Shown here: positions 2,871 to 32,169 of the stretch, piece by piece
Layout: each line of letters starts with the position of its first letter
Position numbering within the stretch: the first letter of the stretch is position 1
Source of the DNA: Nitrospirota bacterium
GTDB lineage: Bacteria > Nitrospirota > Nitrospiria > JACQBW01
Direction of reading: 5' to 3'
Assembly (NCBI GenBank): GCA_016178585.1
Contig: JACOTA010000062.1
Span: 1 to 36,404 of the forward strand
Length of the DNA stretch: 36,404 nt
Notes under the pieces: model-generated
Databases searched by the model: none
What the model was told of the DNA's origin: nothing
The model's input: the letters and a program-made list of their open reading frames with translations, nothing else
Program-made: the position numbers and the translations under genes

Positions 2871-2925
2871 AAATAGATCATTCAGGTTGAATATCATTTT
2901 TCTTTCTTGGATATAGCGCGAGTAA

Positions 2926-3001
2926 CAGGCTTTGCCTGGATGAGCGCTGGGGTTCGGGGCATCGGAGGATTTCACGGAGTGAAACCGTACGGGTCCCTGA
3001 A
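2926..3001 (+). repeat. Family A leader repeat, copy A3 (before rplJ)
   Basis: Hairpin 1 is CAGGC-TTT-GCCTG (2926-2938). The outer stem is TTCGGGGC (2953-2960) with GTCCCTGAA (2993-3001), less perfect than other copies. The inner hairpin TTTCAC-GGA-GTGAAA starts at 2970. It lies between the L10 leader and the rplJ ribosome-binding site. Confidence 0.82.
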
Positions 3002-3046
3002 TCAATGAAACGATTTGTTTATCATTGCAAGAAAGGAGGAAAGTTT

Positions 3047-4045: not shown

Positions 4046-4065
4046 GGGAGAAAGAGCATGCGCGA

Positions 4066-4140
4066 CAGGCTTTGCCTGAGCGCAGGCTGGGGTTTGGGGG
4101 CATCGGAGGATTTCACGGGGTGAAGCCGGACGGGCCCCAT
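4066..4140 (+). repeat. Family A leader repeat, copy A4 (before rpoB)
   Basis: Hairpin 1 is CAGGC-TTT-GCCTG (4066-4078). The outer stem GGGGC (to 4101) pairs with GCCCC (4134-4138). The inner hairpin TTTCAC-GGG-GTGAAG starts at 4111. The tail ATCTATAATAGAGGAG leads to the rpoB start. Confidence 0.85.
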
Positions 4141-4167
4141 CTATAATAGAGGAGATAAGGATATTTA

Positions 4168-8142: not shown

Positions 8143-8181
8143 TGACAAGAATATAAATGATTTAAAAGCCAACAAGAACGG

Positions 8182-8222
8182 AGCTTCGCTGCGGAACCGC
8201 TCGCGAGCAAGCTTTGTGGGAG
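8182..8222 (+). repeat. Family B leader repeat, copy B2 (before rpoC)
   Basis: AGCTT (8182-8186) pairs with AAGCT (8209-8213). The middle has TGCGGAACCGCTCGCGAGC, allowing GCG/CGC pairing. GGGAG (8218-8222) follows directly and serves as the ribosome-binding site for the TTG start at 8230. It is nearly identical to B1. Confidence 0.8.
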
Positions 8223-8229
8223 CGCAACT

Positions 8230-15639: not shown

Positions 15640-16839
<1,200 letters not shown>

Positions 16840-16847
16840 AAGCAAAA

Positions 16848-18708: not shown

Positions 18709-19535
18709 TGGCGATTAAAGAGTTTAAGCCGACTTCTCCGGGAAGAAGGTCTATGACGGTTTCGACCTTTGAGGAATTAACAAAAGTCGAACCTGAAAAA
18801 AGTTTGCTTGTCCGTATTCCTTCAACCGGAGGAAGAAACAATAGAGGAAAAATTACCCGGCGGCATCAAGGCGGGGGACATAAGCGGATTTACCGTTTGA
18901 TTGATTTCAAACGGGATAAATGGGATATTCCGGCGAAAGTTGCCTCCATTGAATATGATCCCAACCGATCTGCGCGGATCGCATTGCTTCATTATCGGGA
19001 CGGGGAAAAGAGATATATTCTCGCACCCAATGGATTAAAAGCGGGAGATCCAGTTTTTTCGGGCCAGAACAATATCGATATTAAACCAGGAAACGCCATG
19101 CCGCTGAAGGTTATTCCTTTGGGGAGTATTATTCATAATATTGAATTAAAAGTGGGTAAGGGCGGACAACTGGTTCGAAGTGCGGGGGGATCGGCTCAAC
19201 TCATGGCCAAAGAAGGAAAATATGTGCAAATCCGTCTGGGTTCAGGCGAGGTAAGGCTCGTTCAGGCCGAATGTTTTGCGACCATTGGTCAGGTCGGAAA
19301 TCTGGACCATGAAAATATTGTAGTCGGAAAGGCCGGCAGGTCAAGATGGTTGGGAATAAGGCCCAGAGTCCGAGGGGTCGCGATGAACCCGGTTGATCAC
19401 CCGCATGGAGGAGGAGAAGGAAAAGCTGGCCAGGGAAACCCTCACCCTGTTTCCCCCTGGGGCATGTTGACCAAAGGATACAAGACGAGAAGAAGAAAGT
19501 TAACAACTCGTTTTATTGTTAAAAGAAGGAAATAG
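18708..19535 (+). CDS. rplB: Ribosomal protein L2
   Basis: This 275-residue protein is needed for subunit association and peptidyl-transfer function. It starts with [17 protein letters not shown] and has [10 protein letters not shown]-like [19 protein letters not shown]. The C-terminal [14 protein letters not shown] carries the conserved histidine near the catalytic centre. Length matches the family (about 273-277). It overlaps rplW by 1 nt and ends 2 nt before rpsS. Confidence 0.97.
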
Positions 19536-19537
19536 GA

Positions 19538-19825
19538 ATGCCGAGATCTATAAAAAAAGGTCCCTTCATCGATGAAAGACTTTTGAAGCGGGTCGAGAAA
19601 ATGAATGTGACAATGGAAAAACGGATTATTAAAACATGGGCAAGAAGATCGACCATTGTTCCTGAAATGATTGGGCATACTTTCGCCGTGCATAACGGCC
19701 GAAAATTTATTCCGGTTTATATTTCAGAAAATACGGTTGGACACAAGCTTGGTGAGTTTTCTCCGACCCGGTTTTTTAAAGGCCACGGAGCCGCAAAAAC
19801 TGAAAAAGCCGCCCCGATAAAATAG
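19538..19825 (+). CDS. rpsS: Ribosomal protein S19
   Basis: This 95-residue head protein of the 30S subunit binds 16S rRNA with S13. It begins [19 protein letters not shown] and has [24 protein letters not shown]-type sequence, all conserved. Length is typical (about 92). It starts 2 nt after rplB with AAGGAAATAGG upstream. A 62-nt gap with short hairpins separates it from rplV. Confidence 0.97.
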
Positions 19826-19832
19826 GTGCGAA

Positions 19833-19864
19833 AAGGCTTTACCTCACGAGCGGCGTGAACGCCT
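19833..19864 (+). repeat. Possible family A remnant (before rplV)
   Basis: AAGGCTTTACCTCACGAGCG resembles the 5' part of family A (CAGGCTTTGCCTG...GAGCG). It is followed by GGCG-TGAA-CGCC (19852-19863), and AGGC...GCCT can close the whole. The 3' half of family A is missing. Called by eye. Confidence 0.4.
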
Positions 19865-19887
19865 GAAAAGGTTAGAAGGGGAAAAAA

Positions 19888-20256
19888 ATGGCAGAAGCAA
19901 AAGCAATATTACGGCATGTTCATATTGGCCCTCGAAAAGCGCGCCTTGTGGTTGATTTGATTCGAGGACAACGGGTAGAGGCTGCGTTAAGCACTCTTCG
20001 ATTTTTACCCCAGCATGCGGCGAAAACGATCGAGAAACTTTTGAAATCAGTGGTTTCGAACGCTGAACAGAAAGCCATTGGAGACGTCGATGATTTATAT
20101 GTCAGCAAAGCCTTTGTAGATGTGGGGCCCGTTATGAAGCGCTTTCAACCGCGAGCTATGGGGCGTGCGTTTGAGATTCGAAAACGGTTAAGCCATATTA
20201 CGTTGGTTCTTTCGGCTCAAAAAGAAAAAAACCAGTTAAAGGATAAAACCAGTTAA
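19888..20256 (+). CDS. rplV: Ribosomal protein L22
   Basis: This 122-residue exit-tunnel protein contains the conserved RHVHIGPRKARLVVDLIRG start and the beta-hairpin with KRFQPRAMGRAFEIRKRLSHITLVL. ATG 19888 follows AGAAGGGG. The final residues (QLKDKTS) come from a 17-bp tandem repeat, and the stop TAA (20254-20256) lies in its second unit. Without that repeat the frame would run on into repeat B3. The C-terminal tail therefore differs from usual L22 and is probably of recent origin. Confidence 0.96.
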   Translation: MAEAKAILRHVHIGPRKARLVVDLIRGQRVEAALSTLRFLPQHAAKTIEKLLKSVVSNAEQKAIGDVDDLYVSKAFVDVGPVMKRFQPRAMGRAFEIRKRLSHITLVLSAQKEKNQLKDKTS

Positions 20257-20286
20257 AGGATAAAACCAGTTAAAGGATAAAACCAG
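20231..20286 (+). repeat. 17-bp tandem repeat at the end of rplV
   Basis: Three exact units of ACCAGTTAAAGGATAAA (20231-20247, 20248-20264, 20265-20281) and a partial fourth (ACCAG, 20282-20286). Because 17 is not a multiple of three, the second unit is read in a new frame and supplies the rplV stop. This looks like recent slippage. Confidence 0.95.
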
Positions 20287-20332
20287 CTACGTTGCGGAAA
20301 CACTCCGCATAGCAAGCTTGGAGGGGAGGGGG
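20285..20332 (+). repeat. Family B leader repeat, copy B3 (before rpsC)
   Basis: AGCT (20285-20288) pairs with AGCT (20315-20318), enclosing TGCGGA (20293-20298) with TCCGCA (20304-20309). It is followed at once by GGAGGGGAGGGGG (20320-20332), the ribosome-binding region of the TTG start at 20341. Confidence 0.85.
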
Positions 20333-20340
20333 ATAAAAGT

Positions 20341-21015
20341 TTGGGACAAAAGGTACATCCCGTTGGATTTAGATTAGGTTATATCAAAACGTGGAGCTCA
20401 AAATGGTATGCGGACAAAGATTATGCCAGGCTTCTCCATGAGGATTTAAAAATTCGGAAAATCGTAAAGAAAAAACTTTTTCATGCCGGGGTTTCCCGAA
20501 TCGAAATCGACCGTTCTGCTAATCAGGTGAAAATTAACATTTTTACGGCAAGGCCTGGAATTATTATTGGCCGAAAAGGGGCGGAAGTCGATAAGTTGAA
20601 AGCAGAACTGGAAGGGATCGCAAAAAAACAAGTTTATATCAACATTAAGGAAATTAAAAAACCCGAATTAGACTCCCAACTCGTCGCCGAAAGCATTGCC
20701 CTTCAGCTTGAAAAACGAATTGCTTACCGAAGAGCCATGAAAAAAAGTGTTACCACGGCGCTCCGGTTAGGTGGTTTAGGAATTAAAATTTCCTGCGCCG
20801 GACGATTGGCCGGGTCTGAAATTGCCCGTACGGAATGGTATCGTGAAGGAAGAGTTCCCTTGCATACTCTCCGGGCAGACATCGATTATGGGTTTGCCGA
20901 GGCAAAAACAACCTATGGACAAATAGGCGTGAAGGTTTGGATTTATAAAGGCGATATTTTGGTAGATAGCGAAGAAGCGCAAAATGAACGCCGAATTGAA
21001 AGGAAGTATGCTTAG
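20341..21015 (+). CDS. rpsC: Ribosomal protein S3
   Basis: This 224-residue protein lies at the mRNA entry tunnel of the 30S subunit. It starts [18 protein letters not shown] from TTG 20341. The KH domain carries [19 protein letters not shown]. The C-terminal domain has [20 protein letters not shown] and [17 protein letters not shown]. Length is typical. The G-rich ribosome-binding region adjoins repeat B3. It overlaps the rplP start by 8 nt. Confidence 0.97.
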
Positions 21016-21421
21016 CCCAAAAAAAGTTAAACATCGTAAGATGATGAAAGGGAGAATGAATGGAAAAGCTTATCGGGGAGCTGACCTGGCTTTCGGTGAG
21101 TTTGGCTTAAAAGCCATGGAGCCAGGGTGGGTGACCAGCCGGCAAATTGAAGCTGCCCGTATTGCGATGACGCGCTATATTAAAAGAGGAGGGAAGATCT
21201 GGATACGGATTTTTCCCGATAAGCCTATTACCAAGAAACCTGCGGAAACCCGTATGGGAAAAGGAAAAGGGAATCCTGAATATTGGGTGGCTGTCGTTAA
21301 ACCGGGCCGAATTTTATACGAAATGGATGGCGTAACCCGGGCAGTTGCCGAAGAAGCTTTACGGTTGGCCGCGTTTAAATTGCCCATCGCCACCAAGCTG
21401 ATTGAACGGGGAGTCATCTAA
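21008..21421 (+). CDS. rplP: Ribosomal protein L16
   Basis: This 137-residue protein helps position A-site tRNA. ATG 21008 is chosen because L16 proteins begin ML(S/Q)PKxxKxRK, here [23 protein letters not shown] lies only a base upstream, so initiation may depend on coupling to rpsC, whose stop is at 21015. An earlier in-frame ATG at 20984 adds eight residues and cannot be excluded. Conserved TARQIEAAR-like [20 protein letters not shown] and [19 protein letters not shown] are present. Confidence 0.93.
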
Positions 21422-22725: not shown

Positions 22726-23331
22726 ATGGCAAAAAAAGAAAGCACAACAAAAAAAGAGACTGCAGTAAAAAAAGAAAGCATGACAAAAAAAGAACCCAAT
22801 GTCATGAAAACCAAATTTAAAGAAGTGTCGCCGCTTCTTATGAAAGAGTTTTCTTTTAAAAGTCCGATGCAAGTTCCAAAACTTGAGAAAATTGTGATTA
22901 ACATTGGAATGGGTGAAGCCATTTCTAATGTCAAGCTCCTTGATGAAGCTGTGAAAGAGTTAGGCCAGATCACCGGACAAAAGGCTGTAATCACCAAGGC
23001 GAAAAAATCCATTGCCGGTTTTAAAGTCCGGGAAGGGATGCCGATTGGGTGTAAAGTGACCCTGCGAGGTGAAAGAATGTACGAGTTTTTTCACCGGCTT
23101 TTACATGCGGCTTTACCCAGGATTCGTGATTTCCGGGGCGTTTCGCAAAAATCTTTTGATGGAAGAGGGAGTTACACGCTGGGTGTAAAAGAACAGCTGA
23201 TCTTTCCGGAAATAAAATATGATGAAATTTCGGCATTACATGGTATGGACATTACCATTGTAACAACCGCGAAGAATGATGACCAGGGACGGGCGTTGTT
23301 GAGGCATCTCGGCATGCCTTTCAGAAAATAA
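22726..23331 (+). CDS. rplE: Ribosomal protein L5 with repeated N-terminal extension
   Basis: This 201-residue 5S-rRNA-binding protein has L5 homology from about residue 27: [16 protein letters not shown], then [16 protein letters not shown] and the conserved [22 protein letters not shown]. The preceding 26 residues are MA plus four hexapeptides [18 protein letters not shown] and KKEPNV. The extension is probably translated: AAAGGGAAG precedes ATG 22726, while Met27 (22804) has no ribosome-binding site. A basic tail could contact rRNA, but this is inference. Confidence 0.95.
22732..22803 (+). repeat. Four 18-bp repeats encoding KKExxx in rplE
   Basis: Four in-frame 18-bp units each begin AAAAAAGA(A/G) and encode Lys-Lys-Glu followed by three variable residues. 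The last unit ends exactly at the Met codon where homology to other L5 proteins begins. Confidence 0.85.
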
Positions 23332-24986: not shown

Positions 24987-24988
24987 TT

Positions 24989-25008
24989 AAGGAGTTATAA
25001 GGAGTTAT
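24989..25008 (+). repeat. Tandem duplicated Shine-Dalgarno before rpsE
   Basis: AAGGAGTTAT occurs twice head to tail (24989-24998 and 24999-25008), just before the TTG start at 25010. The second copy is at the right distance (GGAG ends 6 nt before the start). Confidence 0.9.
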
Positions 25009-25009
25009 A

Positions 25010-29376: not shown

Positions 29377-29388
29377 TAAAGACAAAAC

Positions 29389-29433
29389 AAGCTTTGTTGC
29401 GGAACCACTCCGCGCAGCAAGCTTGGAGAGGAG
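29389..29433 (+). repeat. Family B leader repeat, copy B4 (before rpsM)
   Basis: AAGCTT (29389-29394) pairs with AAGCTT (29419-29424), enclosing GCGGA (29399-29403) with TCCGC (29409-29413). GGAGAGGAG (29425-29433) follows directly, 9 nt before the TTG start of rpsM. Confidence 0.87.
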
Positions 29434-29442
29434 CAAATAAAA

Positions 29443-30962: not shown

Positions 30963-31000
30963 TTAAGCGGCTATTTTAAATTAGGATGAAAAGAGAAAAT

Positions 31001-31048
31001 AAGCTACGTTGCGGAATCACTCCGCAGAGCAAGCTTGGGGGGGGGGAG
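31001..31048 (+). repeat. Family B leader repeat, copy B5, with G10 tract (before rpoA)
   Basis: AAGCT (31001-31005) pairs with AGCTT (31032-31036), enclosing TGCGGA (31010-31015) with TCCGCA (31021-31026). A run of ten G residues (31037-31046) and AG then reach the rpoA ATG at 31049, so the repeat supplies the G-rich ribosome-binding region. Confidence 0.88.
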
Positions 31049-32050
31049 ATGATTATTAGAACAAAAGATTTCCAAATACCCAAAAAGTTGGAATGCGAAC
31101 AGGAAAGTTTGACTCCAACCTATGGAAAGTTTTTTGCCGAGCCATTTGAAAGGGGTTTTGGAACAACGATTGGTAATTCTCTTAGAAGAGTCTTATTGTC
31201 AACGATTGCAGGTGCGGCGGTAACTTCAATTAAAATTGAAGGGGTTTTACATGAATTTTCAAACATTACCGGCGTAAAAGAGGATGTAACGGATATTATT
31301 CTTAATATTAAAAATCTTCGCTTGAAAATGCACACCGACAAACCTAAGTCCATTCATATTCGGAAAAAGGGGCTGGGAACGGTGACCGGGAAAGACATTA
31401 TTCATGATTCCGAAATCGAGATTTTAACACCCGATTTGCATATTGCAACTTTGGATAAAGATGCCAATCTGGACATGGAATTAACCGTGAAAATAGGAAG
31501 AGGTTACGTCCCCGCAGAACGAAATAAGGAAGAAGGAACGGCGATTGGTGTCATTCCGGTAGATTCTATTTTTACCCCGGTAAAAAAAGTAAATTTCAAT
31601 GTTGAAAACGCCCGGGTCGGGAGGATCACCGACTATGACAAACTGATTCTTGAAATTTGGACCGATGGAAGCGTGGTCCCAGCCGATGCTGTGGCCTTTG
31701 CGGCAAAAATTTTAAAAGATCATTTGACGATCTTCATTAATTTTGAGGAAAAAGAAGAAGAGGCAGTCGATAAAACCGAGGAACAAAAAGAGGAAATCAA
31801 TAAAAATCTCCTGAAAAGTGTCAACGAGTTGGAGTTGTCTGTCCGGGCGGCTAACTGTTTGAAAAACGCTGACATAAAAAGTATATTGGAATTGGTTCAG
31901 AAAACTGAAGGGGAAATGCTCAAAACCAAAAATTTCGGCCGGAAATCCCTTAATGAAATCAAAGAGATTTTGGAAGAAATGGGACTGTCTCTCGGGATGA
32001 AATTGCCACCGGAAGTTTTTGCGCTCGCAAAAGAAGAACAAAAAGCCTAG
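31049..32050 (+). CDS. rpoA: RNA polymerase subunit alpha
   Basis: This 333-residue subunit scaffolds polymerase assembly and its C-terminal domain binds UP elements and activators. ATG 31049 is chosen; an in-frame ATG at 30986 would translate repeat B5 (adding 21 unconserved residues). The N-terminal domain has [25 protein letters not shown], the dimer and beta-contact region. An acidic linker (about 230-255, [17 protein letters not shown]) precedes the C-terminal domain with [15 protein letters not shown] and [14 protein letters not shown]. Confidence 0.96.
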
Positions 32051-32065
32051 AAAAAAAGCGAGGCT

Positions 32066-32140
32066 CTGGCTTTGCCAGGCTGAGCGCGGGGCTTGGGGGC
32101 ATCGGAGGATTTCACGAAGTGAAACCGCACGGACCCCCAA
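32066..32140 (+). repeat. Family A leader repeat, copy A6 (before rplQ)
   Basis: Hairpin 1 is CTGGC-TTT-GCCAG (32066-32078), a compensated version of CAGGC/GCCTG. The outer stem is TTGGGGG (32093-32099) with CCCCCAA (32134-32140). The inner hairpin TTTCAC-GAA-GTGAAA starts at 32110. The tail is ATATAATAG. Confidence 0.87.
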
Positions 32141-32169
32141 ATATAATAGTAATATAAGGGAAAAATAAA

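Follow-up and report, generated by a model that had tools for sequence, protein, structure and literature searches.

A tandem array of exact 17-bp units across the rplV stop codon of a Nitrospirota genome, probably a product of replication slippage

The 36,404-nucleotide stretch of DNA analysed here (the window) contains a ribosomal protein gene cluster in which an exact tandem array crosses the end of rplV and reaches into the spacer before rpsC (Table 1). The array comprises 59 bp of 17-bp units with 100% match (3.5 copies according to Tandem Repeats Finder), and exact 17-mers start at positions 20230, 20247 and 20264. It is an ordinary short tandem repeat of an already known kind, for which no special job was found. 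With a probability of about 0.75, we infer that it arose recently and neutrally through slippage between two AAAACCAG repeats in an indel-prone spacer. The presence of exact 17-bp units across the rplV end had been pointed out in the original prediction and is real, the exact array beginning 3 bp before the position given there (20231).

Table 1. Coordinates of the tandem array, the adjoining genes and the dispersed repeats in the window.
Feature	Position	Strand	Evidence
Exact tandem array, 17-bp unit, 3.47 copies, written [AAAACCAG][TTAAAGGATAAAACCAG]x3	20228..20286	+	Tandem Repeats Finder and scripts
rplV, ribosomal protein L22, 122 aa, stop TAA 20254-20256	19888..20256	+	ORF; PF00237, E 1.1e-37
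L22 stop codon TAA, inside second unit	20254..20256	+	Sequence/ORF
Second in-frame TAA, 24 nt beyond the first	20278..20280	+	Sequence
Dispersed hairpin element copy; left end overlaps last partial unit; followed by purine-rich region, then rpsC	20281..20330	+	Model R1, 73.3 bits (copy among the model's own five); repeat family D5
GGAGGGGAGGGGG, presumed Shine-Dalgarno region of rpsC	20320..20332	+	Sequence; inference
rpsC, ribosomal protein S3, TTG start, 224 aa	20341..21015	+	ORF; PF00189 and PF07650; same-family relatives also TTG here
Hairpin element copies (AGCTTCGCTGCGGAACCGCTCGCGAGCAAGCTTTGTGGGAGG type)	20281-20330; 29386-29435 (before rpsM); 30998-31047 (before rpoA)		
Variant hairpin element copies	142-189 (before rpmG); 8178-8225 (before rpoC)		
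Second dispersed repeat copies	427-484; 1982-2066; 2918-3002; 4059-4143; 32058-32142		

The period-17 exact self-match extends over 42 bases and is the longest in the window at periods of 7-60, compared with 11.0 on average and at most 14 for the longest self-match in 200 dinucleotide shuffles of the window. The copies lie head to tail far above chance expectation, as in short tandem repeats of the VNTR type, and the 8-bp sequence AAAACCAG occupies positions 20228-20235 and closes each unit, providing direct repeats at the unit ends that permit slippage. A genome sample of 378,616 bp, made up of the window and 20 other stretches, contains seven exact arrays of at least 24 bp with periods of 4-120, among which the array at the rplV end is the longest and one of two with at least three copies. 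No further copy of the exact 17-mer is present elsewhere in the genome, a 2.45-Mb draft of 82 contigs, and within the class the 17-mer occurs in one of the 196 genomes searched (an even draw from a larger group), which is the window's own. With two mismatches allowed, two other places in the genome match, compared with one for a reversed control pattern, and reuse of the unit elsewhere in the genome was therefore dropped as a candidate.

Pfam assignments place S19, L22, S3 and L16 around the array, whose end lies 54 nt ahead of the rpsC start. The reading frame is common to L22 and S3, and ahead of the rpsC stop (21013) it contains two stops only, at 20254 and 20278, both of which lie in the array, where all three forward frames are closed. 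The junction was rebuilt by script with different unit numbers. Removal of all units results in an in-frame L22-S3 fusion, a single unit in a 151-aa L22 with its stop ending 37 nt within rpsC, and two, three, four, five, six or seven units in the identical 122-aa protein with gaps to rpsC of 67, 84, 101, 118, 135 and 152 nt, respectively. This reproduces both the run-on of a one-unit L22 without a stop before rpsC and the dependence of the rplV-rpsC spacing on unit number proposed in the original prediction. The proposal that unit number changes the L22 tail applies to zero or one unit and fails for two to seven, and since these all give the same L22, unit number mostly affects only the spacing between rplV and rpsC. 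The array thus does not behave as a phase-variable coding repeat, L22 being altered only at zero or one unit.

The nearest named relative of the window is JACQBY01, 'Nitrospirae bacterium isolate NC_groundwater_954', a Nitrospirota metagenome genome. The comparison drew on one genome per species and within the family comprised two genomes (G001 and G002) with three distinct junctions, as G001 has two rplV contigs, JACQBY010000200 (JACQBY_200) and JACQBY010000126 (JACQBY_126). The array is absent from all three junctions, in which the L22 stop lies 15, 48 and 90 nt ahead of rpsC. A wider survey covered 110 loci (L006-L115, the window being L006), of which 78 gave a junction, 73 of them distinct; the other 32 loci, which did not match the junction patterns, enter none of the junction counts. 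The 77 junction rows other than the window contain no exact run of at least two copies with a period of at least 10, a search of exact runs only that could miss decayed repeats. Across the 73 distinct junctions, window included, the rplV-rpsC gap takes values between -1 and 104 nt, and 4 to 80 residues of L22 follow the conserved core. JACQBY_200 and JACQBY_126 are approximately 96% identical (335 of 348 bases in rplV and 244 of 255 in rpsC) and differ in the offset of the L22 stop after the core (42 vs 33 nt) and in the gap (48 vs 15 nt), so that their core-to-rpsC distances of 93 and 51 nt lie 42 nt apart (9 nt in the tail and 33 nt in the gap). The rplV-rpsC junction is reshaped by insertions and deletions over short distances. 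Other families of the class (L009-L011, L015, L016, L021, L023, L028, L029, L031 and L032) encode long lysine- and alanine-rich L22 tails of 44-87 residues from the SHIT motif, with a stop that overlaps the rpsC start by one base.

The L22 stop lies at +42 after the conserved SHITLVL core in the window as well as in JACQBY_200, and at +33 in both JACQBY_126 and G002; +42 is also found in G004, a member of the same class. A serine codon precedes the stop in the window (AGT-TAA) and in JACQBY_200 (AGC-TAG). The stop near +42 may thus predate the array, an order towards which we lean, with neither order proven. Between the L22 core and the spacer the sequence is too diverged from the relatives for its history to be traced base by base, and the alignment there rests on few matching bases; inheritance of the stop is therefore unproven, and because two of the three same-family junctions stop at +33, the agreement between the window and JACQBY_200 could be due to chance. 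The original prediction held that slippage had created the rplV stop codon. Slippage is retained as the likely origin of the array, but 'created' is too strong, because L22 of the nearest relative, whose junction lacks the array, ends at an identical offset from the core.

A dispersed hairpin element is located in the rpsC spacer, and its left edge there is formed by the last AAAACCAG of the array. About 45 bp long, the element contains the hairpin TGCGGA-AACAC-TCCGCA and terminates in AAGCTTGGAG. The genes next to the other copies in the window were named by Pfam as S13, RNA polymerase alpha, L33 and the large Rpb1-type subunit. A covariance model built from the five window copies yielded at least 37 matches at E<=0.01 in the genome, the model's own five included (150 of 323 candidates scored). 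At E<=0.1, with 150 candidates scored in each genome, at least 39 matches were obtained in the window's own genome, at least 12 in G001 and at least 1 in G002, and the 18 other relatives gave none. A same-strand ORF of at least 60 aa starts within 60 nt downstream of 15 of 30 copies in the genome, compared with 3 of 30 on the opposite strand (L136-L165), and the element often occupies the position expected for the ribosome-binding site of the following gene. The repeat called 'B3' in the original prediction, which a one-unit L22 would traverse, is probably this element. In JACQBY_200 the corresponding site contains AAGCTCCGTAAGCCTGGAGG, seemingly a shortened copy. The L22 stop is separated from the element by 14 nt there and by 28 nt in the window, where two units would by arithmetic leave 11 nt. 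The possibility that the last partial copy of the array (AGC TAC) derives by decay from the stop of the relative (AGC TAG) was dropped, since AGCTACG forms the left end of the element and is likewise present before rpoA. The longest reading frame of rpoA starts at 30986 and reads through its hairpin element, and a shorter start at 31049, right after the element, looks more natural. The Y1_Tnp transposase family (PF01797), to which REP-associated transposases belong, has four matches in the genome (G000:C12:328-651, C13:138-461, C18:56554-56877 and C18:43515-43694; L171-L174), which are possible candidates for the mover of the hairpin element.

The array is probably a young tandem duplication generated through replication slippage. 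As judged from the present array, the 8-bp direct repeat AAAACCAG would before expansion have been located on either side of TTAAAGGAT, adjoining the left end of the hairpin element. Mispairing of the two AAAACCAG copies, 17 bp apart, would have added 17-bp units, which the indel-tolerant spacer would have allowed to persist; the L22 frame would now close in the second unit, with extra units merely shifting rpsC away. With 0 differences in 42 bases compared, the exactness of the units accords with a recent origin without dating it, and could also reflect homogenisation. A different course of events, in which the ancestor had one unit and an L22 that ran through the hairpin element until slippage to two units created the TAA, appears unlikely. 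Cutting the present sequence to one unit yields a run-on that extends 43 residues past the core, which would be in line with the known long L22 tails (at least 44 residues after the core in 8 of the 73 distinct junctions, window included), but such an L22 would overlap rpsC by 37 nt, and overlaps of more than 1 nt occur in none of the 73 distinct junctions (32 of the 110 loci uncounted). The same-family stops, all of which precede rpsC and the nearest of which lies at the window's offset, also argue against a one-unit ancestor. An assembly artefact with a different true unit number, for which a draft of 82 contigs leaves room, is very improbable; usual short reads are longer than the 59 bp of the array, so that unit number is normally resolved, and any true count of two to seven units would leave L22 unchanged.

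Nothing suggests a function for the array, which displays no conservation, no structure beyond that of shuffles, no Rfam match and no start codon. The RNA of the array and of the whole spacer folds no better than shuffles (z 1.11 and 0.25, respectively), the stretch including the hairpin folds about like shuffles (z -0.62, with 49 of 200 shuffles as good), and no Rfam family matches at gathering scores within 19500-21200; a regulatory RNA was dropped on these grounds. The unit copies were likewise dropped as ribosome-entry sites, as ATG, GTG and TTG are all missing from the unit. Selection of the array for terminating every frame, or for tuning rpsC translation as a protein-binding site or an unstructured spacer, would accord with the closure of all three forward frames, with the AAGGA of each unit, which is part of the Shine-Dalgarno motif, and with the heptamer repeats of Beggiatoaceae, which close all frames across upstream stops, in some cases in ribosomal protein operons, and for which a regulatory role is proposed (PMC4679880). 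We nevertheless consider such selection highly unlikely: the unit occupies a single place and is absent from the relatives examined, unlike a repeat reused at many genes, it offers no start codon, its RNA folds no better than shuffles, and the gap to rpsC varies widely among the distinct junctions. Since L22 and S3 share a frame and the only intervening stops are located in the array, at least two units would be needed to end L22 properly, a dependency that follows from the sequence, with unit loss in nature and any harm from it being hypothetical. A one-way ratchet, by which a neutral duplication would have turned indispensable without added function, at least two units now being required, is a rather doubtful extension of neutral slippage.

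Several other repeats are present in the window. A second dispersed repeat of 58-85 nt with a core like CATCGGAGGATTTCACGAAGTGAAACCGnACGGGCCCC is found in spacers between the main forward-strand ORFs. The L18-S5 spacer (24988-25009) is filled by tandem TAAGGAGTTA in 2.2 exact copies, resulting in a doubled Shine-Dalgarno-like motif, and the start of the L5 reading frame (22730-22794) contains lysine-codon-rich 18-bp repeats (3.6 copies, 70% match), with the Pfam domain beginning later, at residue 46. An exact repeat of 141 bp is shared by positions 1-141 and 16707-16847, and because its second copy covers the end of an elongation factor Tu gene (15640-16839), the contig probably begins inside a second copy of that gene.

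The junction illustrates that short duplications next to a dispersed hairpin element can rewrite both the end of an essential gene and its spacing to the following gene. It also shows that an outgroup is needed before a repeat that spans a stop codon is taken to have caused it. In bacteria, short tandem repeats such as minisatellite or VNTR loci arise by slipped-strand mispairing, and the hallmark of a VNTR is length polymorphism. The array resembles VNTR loci in its exact short units, in the short direct repeats at the unit ends, in its position at a gene boundary and in its confinement to one lineage among those searched. Among the titles listed in literature searches, none concerned an array of such kind at an rplV end. 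Ribosomal protein genes of Neisseria elongata are described as acquiring short tandem duplications under azithromycin, and the authors place three of them, with inserts of 24, 18 and 15 nt, upstream of rpsC (PMC8758062). These three inserts, all multiples of three, resemble L22 coding sequence by eye, and may lie inside rplV. The window shares with N. elongata a short tandem duplication in or near a ribosomal protein gene and differs from the duplications described there under drug selection in its 17-nt unit at the gene end, for which no link to a drug response is claimed.

A counterpart at a stop codon is provided by marine Beggiatoaceae, in which direct repeats of the 7-nt unit TAACTGA are intergenic, some of them in ribosomal protein operons, with 169 sets in one genome (PMC4679880). 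Most lie no more than several nucleotides ahead of the following start codon, 13 sets run over the stop codon of the preceding gene, and the repeats, for which a regulatory role is proposed, give stops in all three frames. The window likewise has short tandem units at a gene junction of a ribosomal protein cluster that run across a stop and close all frames. Unlike the TAACTGA repeats, which are found at many genes, its unit is 17 nt long and occurs at one place only, where the exact 17-mer is confined to a single array that ends 54 nt before the rpsC start. An array across a stop codon has a precedent in Beggiatoaceae, and the likeness to these repeats, as to the N. elongata duplications, is one of resemblance only.
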